A stretch of 25,151 nucleotides of DNA from a virus, in IMG/VR virus record IMGVR_UViG_3300027291_000046, positions 1 to 25,151 of that record, one strand, 5' to 3'. Each line of letters begins with the position of its first letter. Positions within the stretch are counted from its first letter, which is position 1. The notes under the pieces are model-generated. The model made no database searches and was not told where the DNA came from. It saw nothing but the letters and a program-made list of their open reading frames with translations. This document shows positions 1,926 through 16,206 of this stretch, piece by piece. The translations under genes and the position numbers were made by a program.

Positions 1926-2132
1926 TTATTTATCTTTGTTAGAATGTAGCATATCAGCATGAAAAGCAGAATGTCTATGTTCAATTAATGGTTCATCAAC
2001 TACTCTTATCTTCTTCATAGCCTGCTGCCTAGCCATGGATCGTATATCTTCCATGGTACGGACAGGTTCACCATCAGGATCTCTTACTACGGGATCACCC
2101 TGTATAATGATATTGGCAGCTGAAATTCCCAT
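1926..2132 (-). CDS. Small hypothetical protein, 68 residues
   Basis: ATG at 2132 shares its A with the TAA stop of the upstream gene (TAATG), and AGGAAAG lies just upstream, so it is probably translated by coupling. The protein begins MGISAANIIIQGDPVVRDPDG, followed by a charged helical C-terminal half (EDIRSMARQQAMKKIR). I recognise no family. It lies between the putative internal-protein block and the structural genes. A late-promoter-like GATAAATA overlaps its end. Confidence 0.55.
   Translation of the reverse strand: MGISAANIIIQGDPVVRDPDGEPVRTMEDIRSMARQQAMKKIRVVDEPLIEHRHSAFHADMLHSNKDK
1927..1934 (-). promoter_or_regulatory. Possible T4-type late promoter (GATAAATA)
   Basis: On the minus strand the sequence is GATAAATA, one mismatch from the T4 late box TATAAATA, placed 32 nt before the start of the structural gene at 1895. 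No sigma-70 -35 element is seen. One-mismatch boxes are common in AT-rich DNA, so position is the main support. Confidence 0.4.
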
Positions 2133-2902
2133 TACTTTCCTGTAATCATCTTGTGAACAGCCATAAGATTCTCATGTGACTTATGAATCTCATCATGGAC
2201 ATTCATTCTATGCTCTGGTTTCAATCTATCTGTAGCACTGAGAATAGTCTTTGCAACATGCTGAGGCACTGGATGCTTCTTACCATTCTTGAATGTTACA
2301 TGGAATGGTTTCATATCCGAATCAGACGCTTTCTTTAACTGGACGTGAATATGTTGATCCGCTTCCATACCGTTATCCTCACCGTGCTCTTCATGATCTT
2401 CGGAATCATCATTACTACGAATAGACATCTTCTTAGGACGACCACGGGCTTCATCAAGACCAACTTCTTCCTTGACTTCGCTCTGCATATAGTCAGCCAC
2501 TGTGCTAATATAGTCAGCGGATAAAGTAATTTTATTCTGTACCCATTCAGCCATGTTGGTATTATCTTTTAGCATGTCATGGACTTGTTGAGCATTGGCC
2601 ATGATAGAACGTAACTGACTCTTAGCCATGTCACCTTCGTAGTCATATTCTCTAGGATCTTTGGCTTCTGTGAATCTAAGTAGTTTTGTTTCTGAACTCT
2701 TCGTCTGAGCATTCTTTGCTGTAGCTGCAATCTGCTTTAGACGCTTTTTGTTCTCTGTCTCATATCCCATGGCTTCCTTGATACCATCGTAAGGATTACC
2801 ACCCATGAGTTTACGATGAGCCTTGTAGCGTTTACCACTGCTACTTAGTTTAAAATCGGAAGAGGCTACAACCCCTTCCTGTATTTGTTTAAGTGTTTTC
2901 AT
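2132..2902 (-). CDS. Putative capsid-targeted internal protein
   Basis: A 256-residue charged protein starting MKTLKQIQEGVVASS. The first ten residues resemble a T4-type capsid targeting sequence with an I-Q-E/G site fitting the gp21 protease rule (L/I-x-E). Residues around 80-145 contain AKDPREYDYEGDMAKSQLR and EWVQNKITLSADYISTVADY, a segment I remember from other marine T4-like phages but cannot tie to a function. The C-terminal part is His- and Lys-rich. Its start overlaps the upstream stop by one base (TAATG), and it follows another putative internal protein. Role inferred: packaged head protein or morphogenesis factor. Confidence 0.6.
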   Translation of the reverse strand: MKTLKQIQEGVVASSDFKLSSSGKRYKAHRKLMGGNPYDGIKEAMGYETENKKRLKQIAATAKNAQTKSSETKLLRFTEAKDPREYDYEGDMAKSQLRSIMANAQQVHDMLKDNTNMAEWVQNKITLSADYISTVADYMQSEVKEEVGLDEARGRPKKMSIRSNDDSEDHEEHGEDNGMEADQHIHVQLKKASDSDMKPFHVTFKNGKKHPVPQHVAKTILSATDRLKPEHRMNVHDEIHKSHENLMAVHKMITGK

Positions 2903-4845
2903 TAGAAGTCACTCCCTTGCATACCTTGACCACTAAAGCTATTTGATCTCTGTAGCGGTTTAGCTGCTGCAGCTTTCTTTGCCTTCTCTTCAGGAGTCTC
3001 ACCAGCAGGAGCTGGAGCTGGAGTAGCTGCTGGAGCTGGAGCTGGAACAGCTGCAGCCATTGGCTTATTAGCAGTGGCCACTGGAGCTGGTGCAGGAGCA
3101 GGTGTTGCTGCAGGAGCTGCTGGTTTAGCTGCAGGAGCAGGTGCAGCTGGCTTCTCAGACTGAGAAGCCATGGCTGCATTAGATACACCTGATGTGTCAC
3201 CCTGAACAAAAGCAGCTTGTTCTGGTGTTTTAGTGTCGATTGTACCTACATTGAAACCAAGACCCTGCCTAGCTCTTTCTCTCATTTTAGCTATCTGTGC
3301 ATTCATTTTAGCATCTGCAGCTCTTGCCATCTCAATATCTCTTAATTCATTAACTGCCTTCTTACGCTTGGAGTGCATGTGCATTTCGGAAACAAGAATC
3401 TCTAGTTCAGCTGTTGGAACATACTTTTCAATACCATGTTCAAACATGACATCATACCAAGCAATGTGACCATCTTGATCTGGATCAGCATGTTGAGTAG
3501 TAACAGTACGGCCTTCACCAAACGATTCACTCTTTACATGAATAGCACATTGATGCTCGTAGCTGTTGCCTGGAGTGTCTTTATTCTCTTTAACAGATGT
3601 TTTTTTCTTGTTGTAGAGACCAAGTTTCATTTTCATCTTAGAAGACATCTCTTCTTCAACATCTATCGCCTTTTTACCCATCTTAACAGGGCTATTGCTT
3701 TTAACTACTCCACGAGCAACAAGAATATCACCATGAGTGATGCGTTTTGGATCTCCATGCTGTGCTGCCAGATCTTGCTCTTTATCATTACGAGGAATAG
3801 TACCTTCTTTCTTCTTCATAACTTCCATGATATCAGCAACTAGATCTTTTGATACACCAAAGGTCTTATTAACATAAGATTCTTCTGCAGTAACTTTACC
3901 GTTAACATTACCTTTGCCTCTGATCTTATTGATAAAATCACCAACCGAAGCATATGAACGATTCTCTGTATCTGGACCACCCATCACACCTTTTTGACGA
4001 ACATATGTTCTACCATCTGTATCAGTTCTTGTATTACCTTTACCATATTTGGTATCAAGTTCTTTGTCTGCAGGACGACCAGTACTGTAGTCTTTATCGT
4101 TAGCCTTAGGTGTTTCAGCTTTTGGCTCTTCTGCTTTTGGTGTCTCTACTTTAGCAGCTTGTGGCTTGGACTCTTCATCGTCACTATTGTCATTGCCAAA
4201 TGCTTTATTAACTGTATCACGAGTACTTGCTATTTGTTTAGCCATCGTATCTGCAGGCAGAATTGAAGCTCTCTTCGATGGTGTAGCCATTGCTCGAGCT
4301 CCACGATCATCTGGTTCTGCGTCTGGTTTTGATGACATCGAAGCCATTGCTCGTGCTCCACGGTCATCCGGCTCTGCACTTGTTTCTTTACCTTGAGCTT
4401 TTGCTAATGATGAAGCATCCATTGCTGCTGGCTTTGGAGCATCGTTAGATGTAGGAGCTGCAGCAGCTGGAGTTTCAGGTTTCTTAGCTGTAGTAGCGGC
4501 AGCAGTAGGCGCTTTGGTTGTACGTGGTTTAGGTATTGAGGCTGGAGAAGCTTTGTCACCTACAGGCTTAATATCAGAATCAGGAGTCTTCTCGTTACCT
4601 GGTTTAACACCATTATCACGAACTGCAACAGGAGCTGTTTGAGTTACATCATGTTTAGAATTCCACTTATCTTTCGAAACAGTCTTAGGTAAAGTATTTT
4701 GTTTACCCTGTGAGTAGCTACGCCATGATTGAGCTGCACCGCTCATCTTTGATCTGGCTTCAGCATCAACATCATCAGAGCTAGTTTGGGCTCCCCTACT
4801 ACCCATTTCCATAATATTTTTGATTGATTCGTAAAGTGACTTCAT
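2902..4845 (-). CDS. Large low-complexity putative internal virion protein
   Basis: A 647-residue protein starting MKSLYESIKNIMEMGSRG, with a short N-terminal peptide ending I-M-E/M that could be a capsid targeting and cleavage site. ATG at 4845 follows AAAGGAAA. Residues 60-260 are disordered in appearance and rich in Lys, Ala, Pro, Asp and Glu, with a duplicated AEPDDRGARAMA at 157-168 and 176-187. Residues about 430-490 form an ordered island (EHQCAIHVKSESFGEG, AWYDVMFEHGIEKYVP) that I recall as recurrent in marine T4-like phages. The C-terminus (about 567-630) is Ala/Pro-rich, like a flexible linker. The function is unknown; neighbours suggest a late, virion-associated protein. Confidence 0.6.
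   Translation of the reverse strand: MKSLYESIKNIMEMGSRGAQTSSDDVDAEARSKMSGAAQSWRSYSQGKQNTLPKTVSKDKWNSKHDVTQTAPVAVRDNGVKPGNEKTPDSDIKPVGDKASPASIPKPRTTKAPTAAATTAKKPETPAAAAPTSNDAPKPAAMDASSLAKAQGKETSAEPDDRGARAMASMSSKPDAEPDDRGARAMATPSKRASILPADTMAKQIASTRDTVNKAFGNDNSDDEESKPQAAKVETPKAEEPKAETPKANDKDYSTGRPADKELDTKYGKGNTRTDTDGRTYVRQKGVMGGPDTENRSYASVGDFINKIRGKGNVNGKVTAEESYVNKTFGVSKDLVADIMEVMKKKEGTIPRNDKEQDLAAQHGDPKRITHGDILVARGVVKSNSPVKMGKKAIDVEEEMSSKMKMKLGLYNKKKTSVKENKDTPGNSYEHQCAIHVKSESFGEGRTVTTQHADPDQDGHIAWYDVMFEHGIEKYVPTAELEILVSEMHMHSKRKKAVNELRDIEMARAADAKMNAQIAKMRERARQGLGFNVGTIDTKTPEQAAFVQGDTSGVSNAAMASQSEKPAAPAPAAKPAAPAATPAPAPAPVATANKPMAAAVPAPAPAATPAPAPAGETPEEKAKKAAAAKPLQRSNSFSGQGMQGSDF
4285..4377 (-). 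repeat. Duplicated 12-residue segment AEPDDRGARAMA
   Basis: Two in-frame copies lie at 4342-4377 and 4285-4320. The protein copies are identical, but the codons differ at several third positions. This points to an older duplication kept under protein-level selection rather than a fresh slippage product. Confidence 0.8.
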
Positions 4846-4868
4846 TTTATTTCCTTTTTTAATTAATG

Positions 4869-5444
4869 TTAGTCTGCATCGATAATTTTAAGTTTTCTTT
4901 GTGCTTTTAGATTTCTGGATAAGACGAACTTAGAGCTATCGATGTCGCTATCCTTTGGTCCAATATTTGGAGATGTTGGGGGTGTTTGTAACCTCTTCAT
5001 TATTTCTGGTGTTATCTTATCTACTGGTCCTGAGTCAGATTGTTCGTATGATTTAATATCATCCAAGTGGCCATCAAGGTATCCGAGTTTATCACTAACA
5101 CCAATCCGATCACCTAGCATACGAATCTTCTCAACAATTTGACTTGCTTCTTTCGAGTCATCACTTGTTGATCGTTCTGCAGCCAGTGTATGCTTTTTGA
5201 TACCAAACAACTGATCATGAAGAATAGCCATCTTCTCTGCCAAATCAGGATTAGCATCACGTGGTAGGTTTACAAATAACATCTGTGCCTTTGGGCACAT
5301 TTCAAAATTCTTGGTACGATAGGTGCCAGCAGCAATTTGATCTGATTGATCTTTCTCTATCTTACTACGCTGCTCAAACAAACCCTTCCTGGATTTGCGA
5401 ACAACATCCCTAATTCTGTTTTCTAGTGTAACGTACTTTTTCAT
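4869..5444 (-). CDS. Hypothetical protein in the putative internal-protein cluster
   Basis: The best start is ATG at 5444 (MKKYVTLENRIRD), which overlaps the upstream dps stop as ATGA with an AGAGAAG stretch before it. A start 33 nt further upstream is less likely. The 191-residue product has a basic N-terminus (RDVVRKSRKGLFEQRSK), a middle segment FEMCPKAQMLFVNLPRDANP, a helical region (EKMAILHDQLFGIKKH; VEKIRMLGDRIGV) and a polar C-terminus. A possible L-F-E/Q protease site lies near residue 20. I recognise no enzyme family. It is coupled to dps and lies among putative packaged proteins, so a virion or head-assembly role is an inference. Confidence 0.55.
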   Translation of the reverse strand: MKKYVTLENRIRDVVRKSRKGLFEQRSKIEKDQSDQIAAGTYRTKNFEMCPKAQMLFVNLPRDANPDLAEKMAILHDQLFGIKKHTLAAERSTSDDSKEASQIVEKIRMLGDRIGVSDKLGYLDGHLDDIKSYEQSDSGPVDKITPEIMKRLQTPPTSPNIGPKDSDIDSSKFVLSRNLKAQRKLKIIDAD

Positions 5445-5887
5445 TGTCTTCTCTTTAGTAGAGAGTTTAACATCCATGCATGCTTCTTATGGGCGTCATA
5501 TCTATCTTGTATGAAATTAGAAAGTCCAATCTCATCAAATTCTTCTGCCAATTCGTATGCTTCTCTTAGAGAGGCTAACACTATCTGATTATCACCTGAT
5601 AACGTATTAAACATCTCTCCAGCTGATGGAGCACCTGTACTATCGGCGATGCTTGATAATTCTTTAAATCTTGAAAATGATCCTGGAGCATATTCCCCAA
5701 GAGCTCTAATCTCTTCTGCAATCTTATCAACTGCTCCGTAGACTTCTTCATATAGGTTACCAAGGAATTCATGGTACTGAGGAAAGTCCGGACCTTCTAC
5801 ATTCCAATGAAACTGATGTGCTTTCAAATAGAAAGCAAAGCTATCAGCAAGTACAACTTTCATCTTTTCTGTTAATTGTTCTCTCAT
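5441..5887 (-). CDS. dps: Dps-like ferritin (DNA-binding, iron-oxidising)
   Basis: A 148-residue Dps-family protein. The start is taken at ATG 5887, because AAGG lies 7 nt upstream and the codon overlaps the previous stop (TAATG); an ATG two codons earlier sits too close to the Shine-Dalgarno. The ferroxidase residues are intact: H27 (HQFHWNVEGPDF), H39 (QYHEF), D54 and E58 (GAVDKIAEEIRALG), with the spacing of bacterial Dps proteins. Known family members form 12-subunit shells that oxidise Fe(II) with peroxide and protect DNA. The gene lies among genes whose products carry capsid-targeting-like N-termini. Its own N-terminus contains Q-L-T-E/K, a possible but very short protease site. It may protect phage or host DNA, or be packaged. 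Confidence 0.88.
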   Translation of the reverse strand: MREQLTEKMKVVLADSFAFYLKAHQFHWNVEGPDFPQYHEFLGNLYEEVYGAVDKIAEEIRALGEYAPGSFSRFKELSSIADSTGAPSAGEMFNTLSGDNQIVLASLREAYELAEEFDEIGLSNFIQDRYDAHKKHAWMLNSLLKRRQ

Positions 5888-6156
5888 TACCATGCCTTAC
5901 ATGACCAATATCTTGGCGTTGTTTTATCAGATGCAGTATCGCAATTATGACGAGCTCTAAAGCTCTTGCGACGTGCAGGTATATGTTTCTTGATAGAAAG
6001 ATTCTTATCTCCGAAGTTTACCTTCTGAGCCTTACCATCTCCATCAGGATCAACAAATACTTTAGACTTCTTAACATCACCAGCCATAGGCTTGTTAAGA
6101 GGTACTTTCTTACCTTGAAACTCAGCTTCTGTGATAAACTCTAAAAAACTTAGCAT
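5887..6156 (-). CDS. Small basic protein with capsid-targeting-like N-terminus
   Basis: An 89-residue protein starting MLSFLEFITEAEFQG. The leader ends I-T-E/A, a close match to the T4 internal-protein pattern (IPIII starts MKTYQEFIAEA). The remainder is compact and basic: KKVPLNKPMAGDVKKSKVFV, then KVNFGDKN, ARRKSFRARHNC and KTTPRYWSCKAW. I recall this ARRKSFRARHNC...YWSCKAW end as a recurrent domain in cyanophages and other marine phages. Two conserved Cys near the end could pair or bind metal. It overlaps the upstream gene by 7 nt and is followed by dps with a 1-nt overlap. Its charge would suit DNA binding inside the head, but that is inference. Confidence 0.65.
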   Translation of the reverse strand: MLSFLEFITEAEFQGKKVPLNKPMAGDVKKSKVFVDPDGDGKAQKVNFGDKNLSIKKHIPARRKSFRARHNCDTASDKTTPRYWSCKAW

Positions 6157-8315
6157 TGGTTATTTGCCTTTCTTTTGGCACGTAACATTCTTGCAAACGC
6201 TTCAACAGCTTCACCTGGAGTATCTTTTTTATATTTATTTGTTAGTTTATTTGTGCCTTCATCACCAGCACCATCTTCTTCCATGACAGAAGGATGTAAC
6301 TGGAACCCACCTTGTATCTTCATACCTAAATCAGCTGCAGTATAAACTCCACTATAACCTGACGCACGATCAACTATGAAACTCTCATCAACAGACTCTT
6401 TTCTAACACCAGTTGCTTGCTTCTTTGTCTTTACTCTATCCTGATAAGACTTCTCATCAAACGGTCTATAATCAGCTGCGGCTGCTACAACAGTATTTGC
6501 TGCTGATTCAAGTGATTTTCTTGCTGCAGCACCAGCATTAACAATCTTATCTGCTAATGAAGGTTCAGAACCTTCTGTATACAGATGACCGTACTTCTTT
6601 TCATGATCCTCACGCTGCTTCTTCTGCTTAGCAATTAGATTAAGTAAGCGGTCAGCACCTTTATCAGCATCGTACCCATGTTTCTTTAAACTATCTTTAA
6701 ATTTATCACGTGGTGACTTTGGTTGTACTGCTTCCTGAGCATCAATGAAGTTTTGTTTTGTTGGAGCACCTTCTGAACCAGGCTTTCTCATCTTCTCACC
6801 AGATCCACGAGCAATACGCTTACGCTTAGCGTGAATGTTATCCCACAGTCCAGCTTCTGCTAAATGAGAGTTAACTCTCTGCATTGCAAACTGATGTGCT
6901 GTGGCATTATTTCTACCATCATAGTCAGCTAGACCTTGTTCAAAAATATCTTTGACTTCTTCAAAAGTAACTCCATACTTTTCTGCTTTCTTAGCAAGAG
7001 CAGTATTAGCCTTCTCTTGTAAATATGCTCCGTGATCCCATTCTCTATGAGATACAATGGTAGTAGCTGCGTTCGGAGTCTTTGTCTTGTATGTTTGAGG
7101 AATAATAATAGAAGAGGATGTATTAGCAGTAGGAGTCTGCTTAGCTGGCATTGAACCTACTTTGGTGTAGGTTGCTATCTGCGACTTACCTTTGTTCTTT
7201 CTATTAAAGTCACCAATCTTCTGATTAACAGTCTTCTTGATGTCACCAAGAGCATTAGCTTTGTCTTGATCAGCCTTCTGTTGATCTTTTGGATTCAAAG
7301 ACTGCTTTGCTTTTGCTATTGAAATCTTTCCTAACTCAGTCTTTTGTTTAGACTGGATGACAGCCTGCTTTTGAAGTTCTTTTTGATTCTTAGATAGCTC
7401 CGGAGCTTTAGTGCTACCAGATGACTTAGAATCTGATTCAGGAGGTTTTCCTATTGTTGATAGTTTCTTAGCAGCAAGTCCAGCGCCAATCAGCGTAGAA
7501 CCAAGAGCTCCTCTGGGAGTTGACATGGTATGAGCTAAAGCACCAGCTGCCAATCCTGCCTTAGCTATGTTACCAGCTACACGGAAAGGAGCACCTGCTA
7601 TAGACTTCAAGTTTTGGCCAATAGTGGCCTCATACATTGAGAAGAAGTTGTTTAGATCTTCAACGGTAAGCTGTTCACCAATTAAATTACTATAAATTGG
7701 AATATATTCTGAATTGATATTTCTCGCAGCACTGTATACACCTTTTGTGGATCTACCTGTCTGAACCGCATACAATCTCTTCTGCTCACCTTTTCTAACT
7801 GTTGGCATCATTCTACGAGCCATGTTTCTAATCTGAGCTTCACGACCCTTCAAACGGTTATCAATATTAATCTTTTCTGCAGCAGATAACGAATTATATT
7901 TTACACCGCGTGCACCAGCAATCCTTCTTCTGAGATTCTGTTTAGCCATTCTCATAGCTCTCTGCTTCAACTTTTCGTTCGATGCAAGTCTAGTTCTAAG
8001 AATCTTACGCTTCATCTTCATCTTTGGCATTCTACGTCTTAGAGCCATAGCACGCTTACGACGCTGAATAAGATTTACAGTGCGTTCAATTAGAGTTTGT
8101 TCTGTCTGAAACTTCGTTGGTTTTTCTTCTGGATTAACGACAATTTTATCAAGTCTGCTACCAGTCAACGAAGCTAATCCCTGCTGAGCACGCAATTGTT
8201 GCTGCTGCTGTTGTATTTGCTCAGGAGTAAGAGGAGCTGGTTGCGCAGGCGCAACTCCAGCTGGAGGTGGGGGTGGTGGCAAGGCTTGCTCGCCGAATTC
8301 TTTAAATGTAATCAT
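6150..8315 (-). CDS. Large basic putative internal virion protein
   Basis: A 721-residue protein starting MITFKEFGEQALPPPPPP, with a T4-like targeting leader and possible F-G-E/Q site, then a Pro/Gln-rich linker. Residues about 80-185 are extremely rich in Arg, Lys and Met (RRKRAMALRRRMPKMKMKRK; ARRMMPTVRKGEQKRL). Residues 235-285 are Ala/Gly-rich and hydrophobic (AGNIAKAGLAAGALAHTM). Residues 486-520 carry GLWDNIHAKRKRIARGSGEK followed by MRKPGSEGAPT, a segment I remember as nearly invariant in marine T4-like phages. The Shine-Dalgarno GGAAGAAA precedes ATG 8315, and a perfect late-promoter box lies 45 nt upstream. A DNA-condensing or core/scaffold role inside the head is likely but unproven. 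Confidence 0.65.
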   Translation of the reverse strand: MITFKEFGEQALPPPPPPAGVAPAQPAPLTPEQIQQQQQQLRAQQGLASLTGSRLDKIVVNPEEKPTKFQTEQTLIERTVNLIQRRKRAMALRRRMPKMKMKRKILRTRLASNEKLKQRAMRMAKQNLRRRIAGARGVKYNSLSAAEKINIDNRLKGREAQIRNMARRMMPTVRKGEQKRLYAVQTGRSTKGVYSAARNINSEYIPIYSNLIGEQLTVEDLNNFFSMYEATIGQNLKSIAGAPFRVAGNIAKAGLAAGALAHTMSTPRGALGSTLIGAGLAAKKLSTIGKPPESDSKSSGSTKAPELSKNQKELQKQAVIQSKQKTELGKISIAKAKQSLNPKDQQKADQDKANALGDIKKTVNQKIGDFNRKNKGKSQIATYTKVGSMPAKQTPTANTSSSIIIPQTYKTKTPNAATTIVSHREWDHGAYLQEKANTALAKKAEKYGVTFEEVKDIFEQGLADYDGRNNATAHQFAMQRVNSHLAEAGLWDNIHAKRKRIARGSGEKMRKPGSEGAPTKQNFIDAQEAVQPKSPRDKFKDSLKKHGYDADKGADRLLNLIAKQKKQREDHEKKYGHLYTEGSEPSLADKIVNAGAAARKSLESAANTVVAAAADYRPFDEKSYQDRVKTKKQATGVRKESVDESFIVDRASGYSGVYTAADLGMKIQGGFQLHPSVMEEDGAGDEGTNKLTNKYKKDTPGEAVEAFARMLRAKRKANNQC

Positions 8316-8359
8316 GTTTTCTTCCGCAGGTTTACCTAGGCCTTACTGCCGGGACTTAC

Positions 8360-8367
8360 TATTTATA
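8360..8367 (-). promoter_or_regulatory. T4-type late promoter (TATAAATA)
   Basis: Exact match to the T4 late-promoter box on the minus strand, in the gap between the FkbM gene stop and the start of the 721-residue gene at 8315. There is no -35-like hexamer 17 nt upstream, as expected for late promoters read by a gp55-type sigma factor. Confidence 0.65.
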
Positions 8368-8369
8368 AA

Positions 8370-9005
8370 TTACACTACTGCAAACAGCTTGTCGGCATGG
8401 CCGAAATGTCCTTGTATATTCTTATAACCAAGAGGGTCTAATAACATACTTATCTCTTTGCTAACCGTCTCCATCGTAATTACAGGTAGAAATCGAGAAA
8501 TAGTATCCATTCCCCCAGCAATCACATTTGGTTCATATCCTTCACAGTCTAAACTAATATAATCACACTGCTCTAGTGCTAGTTGGTCAATCGTAAAAGT
8601 TGGGATAAAAGTATCGCCTTTATCAGATACTCTATGAGCACCAACGTTTCTCATATCATTTCTATACATACTTAATAATTTATTAGTCTCACCGAGTGCA
8701 GCATTGATCTTATAGATATTGTCTTTTTGACAATTGTGAGCTAGACAATGGAAGTTAAGTGGGTCTGGTTCGAATGTATATACTCGTTTGAACATATCAG
8801 AAAGTAGTCTTGGGTACATTCCACAATTACCACCAGCTTGAATACAAACCTCAAACTTCTTAACATGATTAAGGATTCCTTGCTTGAGTGGTCCCCAGTC
8901 AGATTTAGGACCATCCCATGCTCCACTATCCTCTGTTATCCAGAGCCAGTTTCTTATTCCTTCTATTTCATCATCTTTAATAGATACTAACTCACTGTAA
9001 TCCAC
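8370..9005 (-). CDS. FkbM-type SAM-dependent methyltransferase
   Basis: A 211-residue protein starting at GTG 9005, which overlaps the upstream TAG (TAGTG) and has GGAG 7 nt before it. The Rossmann methyltransferase core is visible: motif I CIQAGGNCGMY (about 54-63), acidic loop VYTFEPDP (75-82), an N-A-A-L-G-E segment near 101-106, and DYISLDCEGYEPNVI (about 148-162), matching the LD-x-EG signature of the FkbM family. FkbM enzymes methylate hydroxyls on polyketides, sugars and lipids; phage copies are often guessed to modify glycans. Unlike its neighbours it lacks a targeting-like leader, so it may act in the infected cell. The substrate is unknown. Confidence 0.8.
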   Translation of the reverse strand: MDYSELVSIKDDEIEGIRNWLWITEDSGAWDGPKSDWGPLKQGILNHVKKFEVCIQAGGNCGMYPRLLSDMFKRVYTFEPDPLNFHCLAHNCQKDNIYKINAALGETNKLLSMYRNDMRNVGAHRVSDKGDTFIPTFTIDQLALEQCDYISLDCEGYEPNVIAGGMDTISRFLPVITMETVSKEISMLLDPLGYKNIQGHFGHADKLFAVV

Positions 9006-9613
9006 TATTCAACTCCCATTCCAGATCTAACGTCTTTGTATATTTCTCTCGAGTGTGATTCGTTCTTCTTGATCTTACTTGGAAGACCAGCTTTGAATTT
9101 ACCGTAGTTACCACCTGATGCATGGTTACGCATATCTGTACCACTAACACCAGCTTTACGTTCACCAGTATTTGCTACAGAAATTGAATCAAAATGATAC
9201 TCACCATGTGGCTTACCTTTCACTCCATTATACTTATGGAGTAAAGTCTTATACTCTTCTGCTCTATCACTACCACCAGCAATCACTAAATGCTTGGCAC
9301 CGGTCTTAGCAATCTCTGCTGCATGATGCATAATAGTAGGGTGTGCTTTAGAAGCTGTAGAGATAGTTGTATTATCAAGATGTCCAAAAGCACGTTGTAG
9401 ATGCTTTTGTTTTTGTTCTGGAGATAGTGGATTCTTCTTGGCATCATGAGATCCACTTGCTACTACGTGAAGCTGAGCATTATGTTTAGTTGCAAGATCA
9501 TGAGCAGCATTTACATTCTCTTCATGACCACTGGTGATAGGATTCATTCTACCAAATAGTAGAACAGCGGACTTAGCCTTTTCTTCTAATAGAAAACTTA
9601 TAAATGATTTCAT
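9005..9613 (-). CDS. HxGH-type nucleotidyltransferase with capsid-targeting-like leader
   Basis: A 202-residue protein starting MKSFISFLLEEKAKS. The first ten residues match the T4 internal-protein leader pattern, ending L-L-E/E. The enzyme follows at once: AVLLFGRMNPITSGHEENV (16-34) has the (H/T)xGH nucleotide-binding motif as T27-S-G-H30, and GVSGTDMRN (155-163) is the ISxTxxR-like second motif. These belong to the cytidylyl/nicotinamide-mononucleotide adenylyltransferase superfamily. The HLVIAGGSDR segment (108-117) fits the core fold. The substrate could be NMN, a sugar phosphate or a nucleic-acid end, and cannot be decided here. It overlaps the HAD gene by 4 nt (ATGA) and the methyltransferase by 1 nt. 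Confidence 0.82.
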   Translation of the reverse strand: MKSFISFLLEEKAKSAVLLFGRMNPITSGHEENVNAAHDLATKHNAQLHVVASGSHDAKKNPLSPEQKQKHLQRAFGHLDNTTISTASKAHPTIMHHAAEIAKTGAKHLVIAGGSDRAEEYKTLLHKYNGVKGKPHGEYHFDSISVANTGERKAGVSGTDMRNHASGGNYGKFKAGLPSKIKKNESHSREIYKDVRSGMGVE

Positions 9614-10221
9614 CTGCTTGTCGTCTTTGATATTCCATCGCCCTCAACATGGTGAGCATGGAATGATGTGTTTGGATGCTGATCCTTCAACCCTAAGAAG
9701 GAGTGCAGGTTTGTTTTACTATCATCGTACATATGAACATCCTTATACTTATGCTTGGCAACATAACCATGAATCACTTTAGCTTTTTTCTCAGCAGGTA
9801 AAGTATCTTGATTTATATTACCAGCTCTAATCACATGGATGTTCTTCATATTGATACCATGCTTCTTAAATGTATGTAAGAATTTATTCTTATTATCAAA
9901 GTTAGCACGTGCAGTGTTGAAGATAACATGATTGTGAGGATTAGCTGATACTCTCTTTAGGTGATTAACCATATTTGGCATCGGCTTTGATTCTTTATTA
10001 AACTTCTCAGCATTTCTAAACTCACCAAAGTCATAGCTATGACCTTTTGGAAGTTTGTGGTTATTAAACTCTTGATTACTCAAAGTCTTAACTACTTTAC
10101 CTTGTGGATCTTTTACATGGATCTGAGCCGTAGTGTGCATTAATGTATCGTCAATGTCAAAAATGTGAAGAGACTTCTTCTGCGTAGTACCTTCTGATAT
10201 AAATTCTTTAAAGCCGATCAT
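9610..10221 (-). CDS. HAD-family phosphatase with capsid-targeting-like leader
   Basis: A 203-residue protein starting MIGFKEFISEGTTQ; the leader ends I-S-E/G, very close to T4 MKTYQEFIAEA. The HAD motifs are in order: LHIFDIDDTLMHT (18-30, nucleophile D22, acid D24), VIFNTARAN (99-107, T103), a Lys around 145-148, and VHMYDDSKTNL (162-172, D166/D167). The arrangement recalls the 3'-phosphatase domain of T4 polynucleotide kinase (PseT) and similar phage HAD enzymes, but there is no kinase domain. Adjacent ligase-like and nucleotidyltransferase genes, each overlapping by 1 to 4 nt, suggest a nucleic-acid end-processing role. The substrate is inferred. Confidence 0.82.
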   Translation of the reverse strand: MIGFKEFISEGTTQKKSLHIFDIDDTLMHTTAQIHVKDPQGKVVKTLSNQEFNNHKLPKGHSYDFGEFRNAEKFNKESKPMPNMVNHLKRVSANPHNHVIFNTARANFDNKNKFLHTFKKHGINMKNIHVIRAGNINQDTLPAEKKAKVIHGYVAKHKYKDVHMYDDSKTNLHSFLGLKDQHPNTSFHAHHVEGDGISKTTSR

Positions 10222-11411
10222 TATTGTCTCGCTGCAAAGTTTTGTCTACTAAATTCTGCTCTATCAACAACCTTAGTTGGTCTATTATTTATTACTGCAA
10301 CATATCCCTCTGGTTTAGAAGGCTGGCCATTAATTGTTGTATTGAACATAGGACTAGCTGCCATAGCATGATTATGCACATCCTTGGCCTGCTGTAGGTG
10401 ATGATGAATTTGAAATACTTTATCGATAGTATCAGAGTGACCTCTAAGAGTACCAAGTTGGTTATTCATTGCCAGAGTCTTACGATCAATAGCTCCTTGC
10501 GTCTTTACCTTGGCTATTTCTTTTTGATGCTGACTTTGTACATGATCATATAGATCAGTAGCATTAGGAGTAGTGCCATCTCTAACTGTCTTGTTAATAT
10601 ATGTCTTAATATGATCTAGGTGAGGTTCCACCTTCTTGTAATCCTCTGGCTTCATACTTCTATGAAGCTCATCTGCCTGAGCCATGTGTTCTTGAAAGTC
10701 TGCCTGACGAGCGGGGTTGTAATCTGCCTTCGTCGAATCAAACTTATTGTTAATTACATGCACATCCGGATGTTCATTAAAGTGTGAAAGATCAGGATCG
10801 TAGTCTGCTTTCATTGTTTCAAAGTTACCACCCTTGTACCCAGTATGAACTGCAATACCAAATTGAGATTGAGCTACTTTCTGACCTTCTTCTGAATTAG
10901 CAGGTGCATGATACTCAACTAGGTTTGGTTTAAAGCTATGAACTTTACCATTAGTATTTACATCACCGTGTGGATTGGTATCAGAGTTGATACCAGCATG
11001 CATTACATCACCCTGAAATATTCCTGTCTTAGGAGTTACCTTTGGGAGATGATATAGTGCAAGATTTAACTTGTTGACAAGACCTGGAGCATGTCCATGA
11101 TTCTTTTGAACATCATCGTAATCATAATTTAACTTAGGCTCTTTGTTGAAAGCTGATTTGGTAGCAACAAAGAACTGACCTGTTGCTGGATGATGACCAA
11201 ATACAATAGAAGGACTTCCATCCATCTTTTCATACAAAGCTGCACCACCCTTTTGACCTGTTAGTGTTTTATGTACTGCATTCAATGTATTCTTTGCATG
11301 CTGATATCCTTCAGCACCAGCATTAAGTACATGATCTTCTGCATGCTCAAGGTGAGTCAGCTTCTCTTCGTTAGCAGCTGATTCTTTCAGCAATGTGAAT
11401 ATATGACGCAT
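10221..11411 (-). CDS. Predicted ligase-like (KxDG) nucleotidyltransferase with capsid-targeting-like leader
   Basis: A 396-residue protein starting MRHIFTLLKESAANEE; the leader ends L-K-E/S. Residues 58-70 read ALYEKMDGSPSIV, matching motif I (KxDG) of ATP-dependent DNA/RNA ligases and capping enzymes, with K62 as the expected AMP-accepting lysine. FVATKSAFNK (81-90) and GIFQGDVMHAG (130-140, motif III-like F-x-G-D) follow, then FGIAVHTGYKG (184-194, possible motif IV). A C-terminal VINNRPTKVVDRAEF could hold motif V. The length suits a small RNA ligase plus an extra helical domain (about 240-340). I believe related proteins in marine phages are filed as a domain of unknown function. It abuts the nuclease-like gene and overlaps the HAD gene by one base. 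Confidence 0.65.
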   Translation of the reverse strand: MRHIFTLLKESAANEEKLTHLEHAEDHVLNAGAEGYQHAKNTLNAVHKTLTGQKGGAALYEKMDGSPSIVFGHHPATGQFFVATKSAFNKEPKLNYDYDDVQKNHGHAPGLVNKLNLALYHLPKVTPKTGIFQGDVMHAGINSDTNPHGDVNTNGKVHSFKPNLVEYHAPANSEEGQKVAQSQFGIAVHTGYKGGNFETMKADYDPDLSHFNEHPDVHVINNKFDSTKADYNPARQADFQEHMAQADELHRSMKPEDYKKVEPHLDHIKTYINKTVRDGTTPNATDLYDHVQSQHQKEIAKVKTQGAIDRKTLAMNNQLGTLRGHSDTIDKVFQIHHHLQQAKDVHNHAMAASPMFNTTINGQPSKPEGYVAVINNRPTKVVDRAEFSRQNFAARQ

Positions 11412-12377
11412 TTAGTGTCCTAAGGTCTTTTTAAATGATTCTAGATGCTCATCATTATCAAGGTTTACATGGCTTGGAGCAAGACCTGCTTTACCTGCAG
11501 GTTGGAACATTACTGTACGATGGGATGGGTTGTCGGTCTTTTGACGTACAGTCCACTTTCCTTTTCCAGACATTCTTGGAAGACCATGGCCTGTAACATC
11601 TTTACTACCGACTCTATATGTACCGTGACCTTCTCCAACTTGTAGTACATGAACTCCGTGATCTTTTAAATATGATTCAGCTGGACCTAAGTTTGAATGG
11701 TCTTTATAAACATTCTGTGCTTTACCTTTTGCTGACTTCTTTATCTGACCTTCTTTATCAGGATTGTGGTGAGTATTGAGATGATCTATAATTCCAGCAT
11801 CTTCAATTTCTTTAGCATATCTAGGCCTTAGTTGTTTTGCCTTGTCCGGAATATGCCAACCTCCTTTTTTTGGATCGTGGTGGATTGTCAATTGGCCAAA
11901 AGCTGCCTTAGTGTTGAGCTTGACTTCACCAGAATGAACTGTACCAATAATCGAACCCTGATGTACTTCTTTTTTCTTTTTGTTTAGAATAGGCACATCA
12001 GTACCAGCAGAAGATCCTGCTGGCTTATGTCCTTCTGGAACAAGACCATGCTGCTTAAATCGGTTGAAGGTGTGCTCTTCATATTCATGACCTTTGTTAA
12101 CGACCTTTGTTCCAGGTTTATTCAACTTACTCAAAGGCACCCTCATCTTCTCACTAGATCCAACTTTTGATACAGTGGCTGAATGATTGCCATCTTCTTC
12201 GTGGTGTGCATGAAGAACTACAGACTCCCCTGAACCAGCAAGAGTATGAGTTCCTTGTTCGGAATGTTTAGATCCACCAGGTAGATATGGTTTAATGTAA
12301 CTATCAACATGCCTGTTAACTTTAAGACCAGATCCTGCAATAGTTGCTTCTTTTAAGAAAGTTATAAATGTTTTCAT
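11412..12377 (-). CDS. Predicted PD-(D/E)XK nuclease with capsid-targeting-like leader
   Basis: A 321-residue protein starting MKTFITFLKEATIAGSG; the leader ends L-K-E/A and is the best match in the window to T4 MKTYQEFIAEA. In the middle, HEYEEHTFNRFKQHG (97-111), AGTDVPIL (124-131) and HSGEVKLNTKAAFGQ (148-162) give E98/E101, D127, E151-x-K153 and Q162. This is the order and spacing of a PD-(D/E)XK catalytic core with a type-II-restriction-like Q. The flanks are Lys/His/Gly-rich and probably bind DNA. The stop is directly followed by the ligase-like start (TAAATG). A CATAAATA box lies upstream. The catalytic call is motif-based and should be tested structurally. Confidence 0.62.
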   Translation of the reverse strand: MKTFITFLKEATIAGSGLKVNRHVDSYIKPYLPGGSKHSEQGTHTLAGSGESVVLHAHHEEDGNHSATVSKVGSSEKMRVPLSKLNKPGTKVVNKGHEYEEHTFNRFKQHGLVPEGHKPAGSSAGTDVPILNKKKKEVHQGSIIGTVHSGEVKLNTKAAFGQLTIHHDPKKGGWHIPDKAKQLRPRYAKEIEDAGIIDHLNTHHNPDKEGQIKKSAKGKAQNVYKDHSNLGPAESYLKDHGVHVLQVGEGHGTYRVGSKDVTGHGLPRMSGKGKWTVRQKTDNPSHRTVMFQPAGKAGLAPSHVNLDNDEHLESFKKTLGH

Positions 12378-12925: not shown

Positions 12926-12933
12926 TATTTATA
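12926..12933 (-). promoter_or_regulatory. T4-type late promoter (TATAAATA)
   Basis: Exact late-promoter box on the minus strand, 3 bp beyond the clpP stop and about 40 nt ahead of the start at 12887. No -35 hexamer is seen at 17 nt. It marks the switch from the replication block to the late block. Confidence 0.68.
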
Positions 12934-12935
12934 AG

Positions 12936-13490
12936 TTAGAAAATTGCGTCCGCTACACCCAAATCTACACATTCCTGCGCAGTTAACCAAACATCTGATG
13001 GTGGCAGCAGCTTTCGCTTAATCACCTTCTCATCCATTGAACAGCTATCTTTTACAATATCCAGCATACGCTGTTTAATATACTTCGTCTCTTTTTCATA
13101 TGCCTTAGCATCATGCTCTTTACCTTCATAATAGGTAGAGAACTGGTGGCACATAACGCTTGTGTTTTTAGTAACTCTACGACGACCTTTGGTACCAGTA
13201 ATGAATATCAAGAATGCAGCACTCATTAGTGAGCCTACACCAATTGTTGCAACAGGTATCTTACTAGCCTTGATCATATCAATCAAACCAAAAGCACTAT
13301 AAAGATCCCCACCAGGACTATTAATTACAAGAGTAAGTTCTTTACGTTTACCTTCGCAATTTTCAGCCATAATCCATCTAATACAATCACCTATGTTATC
13401 ATCGTTAATTTCACTAGAGAGATAAAATGTGCCACTCTCATATAGTACCATGTCGATACTATCCAATACATTTGAAGCTTCACTAGTCAT
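12936..13490 (-). CDS. clpP: ClpP-like serine peptidase
   Basis: A 184-residue protein; start ATG 13490 (MTSEASNVLD), with TAGGA 5 nt upstream. The longer frame would run 15 codons further and lacks a better ribosome site. ClpP-fold features: TFYLSSEINDDN (21-32), LVINSPGGDLYSAFGLIDMI (54-73), GVGSLMSAAFLIFITGTKGR (84-103) with the likely nucleophile in the S-L-M-S segment (S90, or S87), SVMCHQFSTYYEG (111-123) with H115, and LPPSDVWLTAQECVDLGVAD (162-181) with D166. The serine motif is unlike the usual A-A-S-M-G, so the nucleophile is not certain. Phage ClpP-like enzymes may work with host Clp ATPases or act as prohead-type peptidases. It follows the secreted peptidase gene by 10 nt. Confidence 0.82.
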   Translation of the reverse strand: MTSEASNVLDSIDMVLYESGTFYLSSEINDDNIGDCIRWIMAENCEGKRKELTLVINSPGGDLYSAFGLIDMIKASKIPVATIGVGSLMSAAFLIFITGTKGRRRVTKNTSVMCHQFSTYYEGKEHDAKAYEKETKYIKQRMLDIVKDSCSMDEKVIKRKLLPPSDVWLTAQECVDLGVADAIF

Positions 13491-13500
13491 AAAATTCCTA

Positions 13501-13983
13501 TCAAGGAGGGCAGTTAATAGTCTTAGCAGCGTCAACTACAACCTTATCGCTACTACCTTGTTTACGAAGGTACGAAGCTTGAAGGTCATATGCTTCACGT
13601 TCCTTCTTATACCAAACATCACAGGTTCTAGTACTACCCTGTCTTACATACTGAACATGATGTACCATCTCGTGGAAAATAATGGATCTCCACAAAGGGT
13701 GCTTTGCATCATAATCTTCATCAAAATATATCGCACCATCTTTATATATGGCGGTTACAGTATCACACTTAGGTGCACCTTCGCAGTATAGTGCTTGTAG
13801 ATCTTTCTCGTTAAGTGAGTACATACGCGGCATAGGAACAGAGCCTTCATACTTCATCATCTTCTTGGCTTCTTCCAATAACGATATCATCGCAGGGGAA
13901 GGAGTAATAGTATACTGCGTCTTAGGAGCAGCAACTGCCAGCGTAGATATACATAATAAAATAGTAACTAAAAGGCGTGTCAT
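13501..13983 (-). CDS. Secreted zinc metallopeptidase-like protein (HExxH)
   Basis: The start is set at ATG 13983 because it gives a clear signal peptide (MTRLLVTILLCISTLAVAAP, likely cut after an Ala at 18-19); the frame is open 75 nt further but that region is promoter. The mature part of about 140 residues has IIFHEMVHHVQYV (101-113) with zinc ligands H104 and H108 and catalytic E105. E130 in KEREAYDLQASYL is a likely third ligand, giving a gluzincin pattern. Four Cys (67, 73, 121, 158) could form disulfides, consistent with periplasmic export. A sigma-70 promoter lies just upstream. Possible roles are envelope modification, superinfection exclusion or lysis; none is shown by the sequence. 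Confidence 0.75.
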   Translation of the reverse strand: MTRLLVTILLCISTLAVAAPKTQYTITPSPAMISLLEEAKKMMKYEGSVPMPRMYSLNEKDLQALYCEGAPKCDTVTAIYKDGAIYFDEDYDAKHPLWRSIIFHEMVHHVQYVRQGSTRTCDVWYKKEREAYDLQASYLRKQGSSDKVVVDAAKTINCPP

Positions 13984-14526: not shown

Positions 14527-14695
14527 TTTGTGCTTTGATTTCTCGCATTGCTAAAATTACATCAACAGGAAGGTCAAACAATTTCCTTAGATAGACATAA
14601 GCTGTCTTAACAGTTAATAGAATTATTGAGAGGAATAATACCCATGTAAAGTTTATTAGGAAGCCGATCATATTAACTAAATGTGCTAAACGCAT
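14483..14695 (-). CDS. Small membrane protein, 70 residues
   Basis: The start at ATG 14695 overlaps the gp41 gene end by 23 nt; an internal ATG (residue 9, MIGFLINFTW) is an alternative. One long hydrophobic segment (IGFLINFTWVLFLSIILLTVKT, about 10-31, shown here only as evidence of a membrane span) could form one or two short helices. A charged tail follows (MREIKAQNENKDKKVQRQDT). No family is recognised. A membrane anchor or small regulator is all that can be said. Confidence 0.5.
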   Translation of the reverse strand: MRLAHLVNMIGFLINFTWVLFLSIILLTVKTAYVYLRKLFDLPVDVILAMREIKAQNENKDKKVQRQDTD

Positions 14696-16061
14696 CTTTG
14701 AATTTACTCTTTTCTGATTTTAGTCGTAGTCCAGTATCAGACTTATCAAATACGGGACCATCATCAACTACATCTTCTTGAGCGCTCTGTTCTACATCAT
14801 ACAGCCTCATTTTAGATTTATCAACGCCTATAACAAATCTTCTATGAATACCTGGATCACCAAAACGGTTCTTTAACTGCTTGACCATGAATTGGTTTAG
14901 TTCTTGTAACTCCTCTGAACTTATTAGTGCGACCATAAAGTCAGCAGTGGCTGGTAAACCAAAGGACTCTGATGTATCTTCTAACCCAAGATCACTACTT
15001 GTAAAACCACTTCTGGTTGTCTGAGTAGCTGTAACTATGGGTACATCAAACTCGACAGCAAGACCACGAAGTTCTTCTGCAATTGCCTTAATGTATGTAT
15101 ATGAGTTTACATTCGCCCCATATTTTAATCTTGAAGATACACATATGTTTAGATAGTCGATATAGATTATATCTGGTTTGAAGTTTCTCTTTAACTTTAA
15201 CTCATTGAGAAGATGGCGCATATGTCCAGCACCAGCAGAAGCTGTAGGATACTCTTTAATAATCAACTTACCATTAGTCTTCTCACGAACACGATCAATT
15301 TTCTTTTGATATGAATCACGAGGTAGCAGTGATAAATCATCTACCGTAACATTGAGCATGTTAGCATCAATACGTTCTGCAATACGCTCTTCAGCCATCT
15401 CCATTGTTACATAAAGAACATTAAGACCTTTGGAAAGGTTAGATGCAGCACAATGACACATGAAGAGAGACTTACCAACACCAGTACCAGCAAGTACAAC
15501 ATTAAGAGTTTTATTCGGTAGTCCACCTTTGGTGATCTTATTAAAGTACTCCAAGTCAAAAGGGACACGTTTTTCTTTCTTATGGTAAAAGTCATATCGG
15601 GAATCATAGTCTTCTAAGAAGTCATGTCCGATATGTGAATCGAATGATACAGCAAGAGCATCAGACAGCAGCTGTGGTATTGCTCCCTTACTATGTGCAT
15701 CCTTATCACCATCAAGAATCTGGATCGATTTCATGACAGCATTATAGATTGCTTTATCTTGACAGAACTTCTCTGTCTGATTAACTAGCCACTCCATGTT
15801 AGTGTTAGGAGTATCATCCAACTCACCAACCATTGTTTCTAACTCACTAAAGTAACCAGCTATCTCTCTATTATTATCAAGCTCGATAATGAGAGCTTCT
15901 TTAGTTGGGAACTTGTTATACTCCTTAACAAACCCATCAATGCCTTCATATAGAGCTCTTACAGTTTTATCCTGAAAGTATTCAGACTTTAAAAAAGGAA
16001 TGGCCTTGCGGCCATACTCCTCATTATTTAATAGGCTGGAAAGTATTAGTTTCTCTATCAT
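14673..16061 (-). CDS. 41: Replicative DNA helicase, T4 gp41-like (DnaB superfamily)
   Basis: A 462-residue protein, close to the length of T4 gp41. The N-terminal helical domain (1-140) is followed by a RecA-type motor: Walker A AGTGVGKS (191-198), LYVTMEMAEERIAERI (216-231, motif H1a-like), Walker B PDIIYIDYLN (296-305), VPIVTATQTTRSG (H3-like) and an arginine-rich late segment (KNRFGDPGIHRRFVIGVDKS). In T4 the gp41 hexamer encircles the lagging strand, unwinds the fork and recruits gp61 primase; gp59 loads it. Neither gene 61 nor 59 is in this window. The start overlaps the small gene upstream by 38 nt, and order after uvsX matches T4-like phages. Confidence 0.95.
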   Translation of the reverse strand: MIEKLILSSLLNNEEYGRKAIPFLKSEYFQDKTVRALYEGIDGFVKEYNKFPTKEALIIELDNNREIAGYFSELETMVGELDDTPNTNMEWLVNQTEKFCQDKAIYNAVMKSIQILDGDKDAHSKGAIPQLLSDALAVSFDSHIGHDFLEDYDSRYDFYHKKEKRVPFDLEYFNKITKGGLPNKTLNVVLAGTGVGKSLFMCHCAASNLSKGLNVLYVTMEMAEERIAERIDANMLNVTVDDLSLLPRDSYQKKIDRVREKTNGKLIIKEYPTASAGAGHMRHLLNELKLKRNFKPDIIYIDYLNICVSSRLKYGANVNSYTYIKAIAEELRGLAVEFDVPIVTATQTTRSGFTSSDLGLEDTSESFGLPATADFMVALISSEELQELNQFMVKQLKNRFGDPGIHRRFVIGVDKSKMRLYDVEQSAQEDVVDDGPVFDKSDTGLRLKSEKSKFKDAFSTFS

Positions 16062-16206
16062 ATTGTTCCAATGTAATTACACGAGTACCACTAGGTGTTT
16101 TTCCAAGATAGTCAAGTAGTTCTCTGTCATTAAAGAAGTACCTGAATCCTTCTGCATTACTCTGACTCAGAAACTTGATCTTGTACTGCTCCGACTTGGG
16201 ATCCAT
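16024..16206 (-). CDS. Small hypothetical protein between uvsX and gene 41
   Basis: The start is set at ATG 16206 (MDPKSEQYKIKFLSQSN), with GAAGGA 8 nt upstream; a longer frame begins 30 nt earlier. It gives 60 residues and overlaps uvsX by 50 nt and gene 41 by 38 nt. The sequence FRYFFNDRELLDYLGKTPSG followed by TRVITLEQYD looks like a compact alpha/beta fold. Both overlaps and a decent ribosome site support it as real. The function is unknown; a partner of UvsX or gp41 is possible from position only. Confidence 0.6.
   Translation of the reverse strand: MDPKSEQYKIKFLSQSNAEGFRYFFNDRELLDYLGKTPSGTRVITLEQYDRETNTFQPIK

Follow-up and report, generated by a model that had tools for sequence, protein, structure and literature searches.

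We analysed a 25,151-base fragment of a virus genome (IMG/VR record IMGVR_UViG_3300027291_000046; this whole stretch is called the window below) that carries T4-type replication genes on the minus strand, and we describe a cluster of eleven genes within it, at positions 2132-12377. In our judgement this cluster is very probably an operon with which a T4-like phage encodes cargo for its capsid, and in which at least five unrelated proteins carry a T4-type capsid targeting sequence (CTS), are cut by the prohead protease gp21 and are injected together with the DNA. Five of the eleven proteins begin with a full leader, which has F or I at residue 4, F or L at residue 7, L or I at residue 8 and E at residue 10. 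Published sources that were available in part are marked "excerpt" where they are cited.

Five cluster proteins share an N-terminal leader

The five leaders, written here with a caret at the predicted cut, stand on proteins of different kinds, all encoded on the minus strand. They are MKTFITFLKE^A (12348-12377) on a 321 amino acid (aa) candidate PD-(D/E)xK nuclease (11412..12377); MRHIFTLLKE^S (11382-11411) on a 396 aa polynucleotide-ligase-like protein of the DUF6267 family (10221..11411); MIGFKEFISE^G (10192-10221) on a 203 aa HAD-type phosphatase-like protein (9610..10221); MKSFISFLLE^E (9584-9613) on a 202 aa cytidylyl/nucleotidyltransferase-like protein (9005..9613); and MLSFLEFITE^A (6127-6156) on an 89 aa protein with an EFQGKK domain (5887..6156; phrog_7595, 2.9e-14).

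A strict regular expression for the leader matched 6 of the 34 gene calls in the window, namely these five proteins and UvsX; residue shuffles gave 0.3 ± 0.5 matches over 200 trials, with a maximum of 2. We also built a leader profile whose training set held solely N-terminal sequences of environmental DUF6267 proteins, with the window excluded, and scored 35 window starts with it, taking p values from 47,885 internal positions. The four leader proteins outside the DUF6267 family scored 20.3 (5887), 17.5 (11412), 16.6 (9610) and 14.6 (9005), each with p ≤ 6e-5, and the window DUF6267 protein itself (10221) scored 4.0 (p 0.007). On the strength of the shuffles and the profile p values, we rejected a chance origin of the shared leader.

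The original prediction had assigned the leader to eight proteins. Judging from their sequences, and because of the profile scores and the fit to the regular expression, we class five as firm (11412, 10221, 9610, 9005 and 5887), one as probable and one as doubtful. The probable case is a 721 aa protein (6150..8315, minus strand; MITFKEFGEQ; profile 3.3, p 0.009) and the doubtful one a 256 aa protein (2132..2902, minus strand; MKTLKQIQEG; -1.2, p 0.05); both have the hydrophobic residues 4 and 7, with the Glu at position 9 and not 10. The eighth, a 647 aa protein (2902..4845, minus strand) with the claimed leader MKSLYESIKNIMEM, is unsupported (-8.4, p 0.45).

UvsX (16157-17212, minus strand; MSFLKSLIKEIG) was rejected as a leader protein: it matches the regular expression, but its profile score is 1.1, and we regard its start as a look-alike. 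The UvsX of HTVC008M and the probable UvsX of S-CREM2 also begin with a look-alike (MANFLKQIIKETG and MSFLNDIAKEIG, respectively), and such starts are a source of false positives for simple patterns.

The leader corresponds to the T4 capsid targeting sequence

In T4 IPIII a stretch of ten N-terminal residues is enough to act as a CTS, with residues 4 and 7 serving targeting and residues 8 and 10 serving processing, and gp21 cuts after L/I-x-E (PMC9026906, excerpt). The same protease removes N-terminal peptides from IPI, IPII, IPIII, Alt and gp24 (PMC9958956, excerpt). The leaders of five of the 11 cluster proteins agree with the IPIII mutational map at positions 4/7 and 8/10, and those of 6150 and 2132 meet just the targeting half (residues 4 and 7). 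When the DUF6267-trained profile was run on 272 T4 gene calls, gp61.1 ranked first (16.2), followed by IPIII and IPII, both at 9.8, while gp24 took fifth place (4.3); the start of T4 Alt matches the strict regular expression. The original claim, that unrelated enzymes carry a capsid targeting leader of the T4 type, is supported by this retrieval of IPII and IPIII, by the residue match to the IPIII map and by the presence of gp21 in relatives of the window (see below).

We also asked how often the profile picks out proteins that are clearly not of the virion, since many such proteins would have spoken against packaged cargo. Across eight phage genomes, 18 gene calls scored ≥8, and one was clearly unrelated, an S-PM2 open reading frame (ORF) whose CPYC motif gives it the look of a glutaredoxin. 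The other 17 were T4 IPII, IPIII and gp61.1, cluster-family proteins, S-CREM2 virion proteins, or proteins of unexamined function.

The top-scoring T4 protein, gp61.1 (NC_000866, 18966-19130), is a hypothetical protein of 54 aa that starts MKTFKEFIKED, is encoded beside the gp61 primase gene and outscores IPII and IPIII. From its sequence we predict that gp61.1 is an unrecognised internal protein.

Leader-bearing relatives are found in virion proteomes

Table 3 of the S-CREM2 study lists 52 virion proteins (PMC10665884). Using mechanical gene calls we mapped 50 of these, the other two being lost at piece borders. Several begin with a leader: the SAM hydrolase ORF6 (MKDFDSFLEEF), the APH/ChoK kinase ORF14 (MKRFDAFLTEE, with a GTG start), the cytidylyltransferase ORF154 (MKNFSSFLTEA), ORF13 (MKDLHSFLTEQ) and ORF136 (MQTFSMFFSED), along with a shorter start on ORF15 (MNFSEFNES). 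On the DUF6267-trained profile, all 23 of the mapped proteins classed as structural by the authors stayed below 5. At a threshold of ≥8, all three gene calls were virion proteins (p 0.013), and virion proteins not called structural outscored non-virion gene calls (27 vs 162, Mann-Whitney p 0.006). Enrichment in this phage was computed twice, with differing profiles and start rules. A separate observation concerns S-CREM2 ORF12 (7704-10313, L095), which is annotated as a CRISPR-Cas9 nuclease, was detected in the virion and adjoins ORF13, 14 and 15; it has a leader-like LRFASFMAEAA 17 residues in.

Nucleotidyltransferases with a leader are also recorded in the virions of other cyanophages. S-SZBM1_140 (MRFRQFIIEA) stands in the virion Table 1 of its study (PMC9146016, excerpt), T4-GC190 of S-SM1 (MKKFSAFLNEA) was detected in the virion by Sullivan and colleagues (PMC3037559, excerpt), and ORF91 of S-SCSM1 (MKSFLQFLKEA) is a virion protein (PMC9602691, excerpt). 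A kinase reported in the S-CRM01 virion, as cited in the S-CREM2 paper (PMC10665884, excerpt), is probably SCRM01_130c, which starts MISFDQFLSEK. The helicase gene of S-SCSM1 is followed downstream by five consecutive protein genes (MK867354, 86357-91835) annotated as virion proteins, only one of them, ORF91, with a full leader; its neighbours 89, 90, 92 and 93 carry that annotation without full leaders.

In S-CREM2 and S-SZBM1 the DUF6267 protein lacks a leader, and it is absent from the virion tables of both phages. The S-PM2 cytidyltransferase, which is leaderless and fused behind the end of a DUF6267 protein, is described as undetected in the S-PM2 virion (PMC3037559, excerpt); this non-detection is a weak point, because several proteins of the head and tail also escaped detection in that older study. 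The idea that the leader is a packaging tag for cargo thus gains from leader-bearing relatives that are in published virion proteomes, from three leaderless ones that are not, and from the junction sites kept in fused relatives (see below). We rejected the non-T4 phage S-CBWM1, whose NMNAT is said to be in the virion, as evidence, and it stays outside the argument because it gave no match to the nucleotidyltransferase alignment and no S77 protease. For pf16, no virion proteomics was found in the available part of PMC5587285.

Prohead protease and late promoters

The prohead protease gp21 (PF03420, S77) was found in all 11 complete T4-like phages searched: DLP6, Melnitz-3, C48C1, HTVC008M, T4, Syn9, S-PM2, S-SM1, S-SCSM1, S-CRM01 and S-SZBM1. 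The PF03420 searches were positive in 7 of 8 records and then in 4 of 5, the negatives being S-CBWM1 and a contig of 63 kb that is nearly identical to the window. A gp21-like protease had been expected in the rest of the genome from which the window comes; one was found in every complete T4-like phage searched, and in neither of the two fragments, the window and the 63 kb contig. A prohead protease is also listed in Table 3 of the S-CREM2 study (PMC10665884).

Adjoining the cluster is a ClpP-like protein (12936-13535; phrog_94, head maturation protease, 1.1e-24; PF00574, 1.9e-31), a second candidate processing enzyme. These matches, together with the lack of an S77 protease in the 63 kb contig, would suit T4-like packaging in which another protease, for example this neighbour, makes the cut. 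The leader site obeys the gp21 L/I-x-E rule (PMC9026906, excerpt). With S77 present in 11 of 11 complete T4-like phages as well, we consider cutting by a protease other than gp21 improbable, and we retain gp21 as the predicted processing enzyme.

The sequence TATAAATA, which we take to be a T4-type late promoter sequence, occurs four times in the window, always on the minus strand. Three copies lie in intergenic gaps, 41, 44 and 63 bases ahead of gene starts, against 0.067 expected from shuffled gaps; the gaps make up 2.9% of the stretch and depend on the gene starts chosen. One copy (12926..12933) is 41 bases ahead of the ATG (12884) of the gene heading the cluster, and another (8360..8367) is 44 bases ahead of 6150-8315 and heads the second half of the cluster.

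Enzymes of the predicted cargo

The window DUF6267 protein (10221-11411) matched PF19782 at 3.8e-90. Its AlphaFold2 (AF2) model had a mean predicted local distance difference test (pLDDT) score of 89.6, and in a VIA structure search with it, ligases filled all 50 rows shown, the best being Naegleria RNA ligase (Z 10.9, root-mean-square deviation 3.5 Å, 183 residues aligned), with T4 RNA ligase 2 (2hvq) at Z 8.8. Residues K62, D64, G65, E368, G369, K380 and R384 are invariant in an alignment of 28 sequences; we take the KxDG lysine and the downstream residues to be ligase-superfamily motifs. A Foldseek search with the model gave no match at E ≤ 0.001 (best E 0.048), and a sequence search for DUF6267 relatives in the PDB returned none, only two weak chance rows. 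The model and the invariant KxDG residues indicate a ligase-like fold, in agreement with the ligase-like protein first proposed for the cluster.

For the HAD protein (9610-10221), in which FDIDDT is present, the closest PHROG was phrog_415, polynucleotide kinase (8.2e-9), and PF03767 scored 16.5 bits, its cut-off being 27; the motif FD(I/V)D(D/E)T is kept in most of the homologs listed. The nucleotidyltransferase (9005-9613) matched phrog_3041 at 5.5e-45 and, from residue 19 on and below the cut-off, PF01467, with G29-H30, S157 and R162 invariant in 8 homologs. In the candidate nuclease (11412-12377), D127, E151 and K153 are invariant in 7 aligned sequences; its AF2 model reached a pLDDT of 60.7, a weak value, and searches of Pfam and PHROG gave no match. 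The protein is probably a PD-(D/E)xK nuclease; of the nuclease as originally claimed, the motif residues stand and a family match is missing.

These enzyme features bear on whether the tagged proteins might go to the prohead core to act there as assembly factors, similar to the effect of IPIII on head shape, and not be injected as enzymes. T4 IPIII mutants do alter head assembly (PMC9026906, excerpt), and the 721 and 647 aa proteins of the cluster look low-complexity by eye. Against this reading, catalytic motifs are kept here (the ligase KxDG and its partners, the HAD motif, and G29-H30, S157 and R162 of the nucleotidyltransferase), as is a ligase fold, and in S-CREM2 the leader stands on a SAM hydrolase and a kinase. 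We hold an assembly role to be unlikely and prefer injected enzymatic cargo.

The leader is gained and lost as a module

DUF6267 had at least 597 matches in IMG/VR, and we surveyed the 80 that ranked highest by likeness to the window protein. The start passed the strict pattern in 45, failed in 23 and was truncated in 1; 6 proteins were missed by the domain motif and 5 were fused. Split by eye, the 23 failing starts comprised 10 longer variants, 6 short remnants and 7 without a leader, and among the six missed by the domain motif a full leader was visible in 5 and a weak one in L112. We count this tally as independent evidence, though it covers the 80 matches most like the window protein. The invariance of Glu10 in the 28-sequence alignment (the window plus 27 hand-picked from 66, mostly leader-bearing) is not independent evidence, because its members were mostly chosen with leaders.

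Other families show the same behaviour. In an alignment of the candidate nuclease with 6 homologs (33-90% identity), the leader is kept in all, with MK(T/S)F and Glu10 in 7 of 7, and the length of the junction between leader and core varies, one homolog (L156) joining the leader straight to the core with ~90 residues lost. Among homologs of the HAD protein, L113 and L172 carry different full leaders and L106 a degenerate one; across the HAD and nucleotidyltransferase families, homologs have differing leaders or none. The leader falls below pLDDT 50 in both AF2 models (residues 1-18, and 1-15 in the DUF6267 model), in which residues 5-9 or 4-10 form a short helix. We conclude that the leader is a removable module, gained and lost modularly.

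Fused relatives separate its two halves. In all five fused DUF6267 proteins among the best 80, (L/M)-x-E stands directly ahead of the domain, and a strong targeting half is present solely in L153 (18.0; the others -0.2 to 4.7). The cleavage half is thus kept apart from the targeting half at fusion junctions, as a protease site at a domain border predicts. For the EFQGKK domain, one search pattern gave eight unique preceding junctions, six of which, the leader of L005 included, read (L/I/M)-x-E-(A/S); the other two, PEEDA and LQEEA, do not fit exactly. This domain occurs alone with a leader, or within larger proteins, often just after (L/I/M)-x-E-(A/S), including at the C-terminus of the Melnitz nucleotidyltransferase.

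The FxxFL of the leader resembles a hydrophobic clamp-binding motif, and the cluster sits between the helicase and primase genes in Melnitz-3, HTVC008M, Syn9, S-SZBM1 and S-SM1. Its enzymes, by family, act on nucleic acids or nucleotides, and the leader could be imagined as a replisome- or clamp-binding peptide that tethers repair enzymes to the neighbouring gp41/gp61 machinery. Against this, (L/M)-x-E alone is retained at fusion junctions, leader-bearing relatives are in virions, and the profile retrieves T4 IPII and IPIII, the IPIII leader being a proven CTS. We rate tethering to the replisome as very unlikely, and a capsid targeting leader remains our preferred explanation.

Points that weigh against packaged cargo

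Several results count against the cargo operon. In S-CREM2, a profile threshold of ≥5 returned 5 virion and 5 non-virion gene calls, a modest enrichment (p 0.058), and of the 5 of 7 virion proteins found at the cut-off of an earlier profile (p 0.009), one was a spurious internal start in the structural ORF123. Leaderless virion proteins are encoded at the same locus (S-SCSM1 89, 90, 92 and 93; S-SZBM1_139 and 136; S-CREM2 155, 156 and 160), so the leader is not required for presence in the virion. Nor is the leader universal: S-PM2 has none on its cluster-family proteins, and HTVC008M has solely weak ones (3.8 and 3.1). T4 IPI and Alt were absent from the nine best profile rows of the 272 T4 gene calls. 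Neither gp21 nor gp23 was found in the window or in the near-identical 63 kb contig; both are fragments, for which the lack of gp23 is uninformative. The count of TATAAATA over the whole window, 4 against 2.17 expected, is not unusual. For S-CREM1, the available text has an NMNAT gene in a figure legend and names no nucleotidyltransferase among 14 detected proteins.

The authors of the S-CREM2 and S-SCSM1 proteomes also allow that the enzymes may be contaminants (PMC10665884 and PMC9602691, excerpts). Together with the look-alike start of UvsX, this could be taken to mean that the virion detections reflect contamination by abundant enzymes and that the shared start is a convergent amphipathic sequence. 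Contamination would have to have brought leader-bearing nucleotidyltransferases into four independent virion preparations and not into the one leaderless case checked, S-PM2, and convergence is at odds with the shuffles, the profile p values and the swapping of leaders between domains. We find this combination most improbable. Packaged, gp21-processed cargo is the account that we carry forward.

Genomic setting

The replication genes of the window include DNA polymerase (18636-21167, minus strand), assigned from sequence and position alone, and a DnaB-like gp41 helicase (14673-16061, minus strand). The cluster follows downstream of the helicase gene with a few small genes between, every one of its eleven genes lying on the minus strand. 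Its families comprise DUF6267, the nucleotidyltransferase, the HAD-like protein, a methyltransferase of the FkbM type and a Dps/ferritin-like protein, besides several unknowns. The leaderless members, also on the minus strand, are a 202 aa protein (4869..5477), the Dps/ferritin-like protein (5441..5893; PF00210, 5.2e-25; leader profile score 1.3) and the FkbM-type methyltransferase (8370..9005, GTG start; PF05050, 2.2e-11; leader profile score -10.1).

In the environmental contigs L110, L112, L116 and L126, sugar-epimerase and glycosyltransferase-like genes, judged from start sequences alone, lie upstream of the leader cluster. In one contig (L154, 407-7179) a run of adjacent genes begins in leader-like fashion, with 8 of 18 gene calls reaching a score of ≥6.

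Proposed mechanism and role

The TATAAATA promoters would drive late expression of the cargo genes. The leader would bind the scaffold core through its hydrophobic residues 4 and 7, drawing the tagged proteins into the prohead, where a gp21-type prohead protease would cut at (L/I)-x-E, residues 8-10; the tag would be lost and the proteins would stay with the packaged DNA, to enter the next cell together with it. The enzymatic cargo would consist of the ligase-like DUF6267 protein, the HAD phosphatase, the nucleotidyltransferase and the probable PD-(D/E)xK nuclease. For this phage we infer that the genes are expressed late and that their products are packaged, cut and injected.

Our guess is that the cargo repairs or protects nucleic acids in the first minutes, before phage gene expression. 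A nuclease, a ligase, an end phosphatase and a nucleotidyltransferase might, as a set, heal the incoming genome or host-cleaved RNA, or protect against restriction, much as IPI-IPIII do by blocking GmrSD enzymes (PMC12373910, excerpt). A broader proposal, which we put forward tentatively and would not back at even odds, is that many marine and freshwater T4-like phages hold interchangeable CTS-tagged enzymes, mostly at the gp41-gp61 locus, as a pre-packaged kit for nucleic-acid repair and counter-defence. The kit would comprise a nuclease, a ligase, an end phosphatase and a nucleotidyltransferase here, and a SAM hydrolase, a kinase and a Cas9-like nuclease in other phages; fused forms would be packed as polyproteins, which gp21 would split into separate enzymes in the prohead at conserved (L/I/M)-x-E sites on the domain borders.

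Cytidylyltransferase/NMNAT, kinases and SAM hydrolase have turned up repeatedly in cyanophage virion proteomes, whose authors have been unsure whether they are carried or are contaminants, and a shared tag gives a sequence-level reason for carriage. The tag also predicts exact mature N-termini, which can be searched for in existing mass-spectrometry data, and the leader would offer an inexpensive way to predict which hypothetical proteins are injected effectors. The T-even internal-protein system of small restriction inhibitors and Alt would be extended to multi-enzyme cargo in marine and freshwater T4-like phages.

Comparison with known systems

The kind of system is already known, because the CTS has been suggested as the way in which T4-like phages load various proteins (PMC9026906, excerpt) and at least ten internal proteins have been reported for T-even phages (PMC12373910, excerpt). 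In the part of the literature searched, we found no earlier report of the leader on this locus and none on DUF6267, and a search joining capsid targeting with cyanophage and T4-like returned a T4 review only. The S-CREM2 paper (PMC10665884) makes no mention of leader, propeptide, N-termin, targeting, gp21 or internal protein. What is new here is the proposed operon of enzyme cargo, fused in part, in phages other than the T-even group.

The closest likeness is to T4 IPI, IPII and IPIII with the CTS of Mullaney and Black: a 10-residue N-terminal tag that is hydrophobic at positions 4 and 7, has L or I at position 8 and ends in Glu, on mature parts that are unrelated, with an S77 protease present in relatives of the window. 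The T4 cargo, however, consists of small restriction inhibitors, whereas the window has an operon of enzymes beside replication genes, and in its relatives fusion has produced larger proteins with internal sites retained. T4 Alt, a packaged ADP-ribosyltransferase, is alike in being an enzyme that is packaged, trimmed by gp21 and injected, but it is one enzyme and has a 7-residue propeptide. The cyanophage virion enzymes (cytidylyltransferase/NMNAT, kinase and SAM hydrolase of S-CREM2, S-SZBM1, S-SCSM1, S-SM1 and S-CRM01) share the nucleotidyltransferase family and the leader and, except in S-CREM2, the locus. Polyvalent proteins of phages are likely injected multi-domain enzymes. They resemble the window proteins as probable injected enzyme cargo, but the window has mostly single domains, each with its own tag; such proteins are mentioned in PMC9503650 (excerpt).

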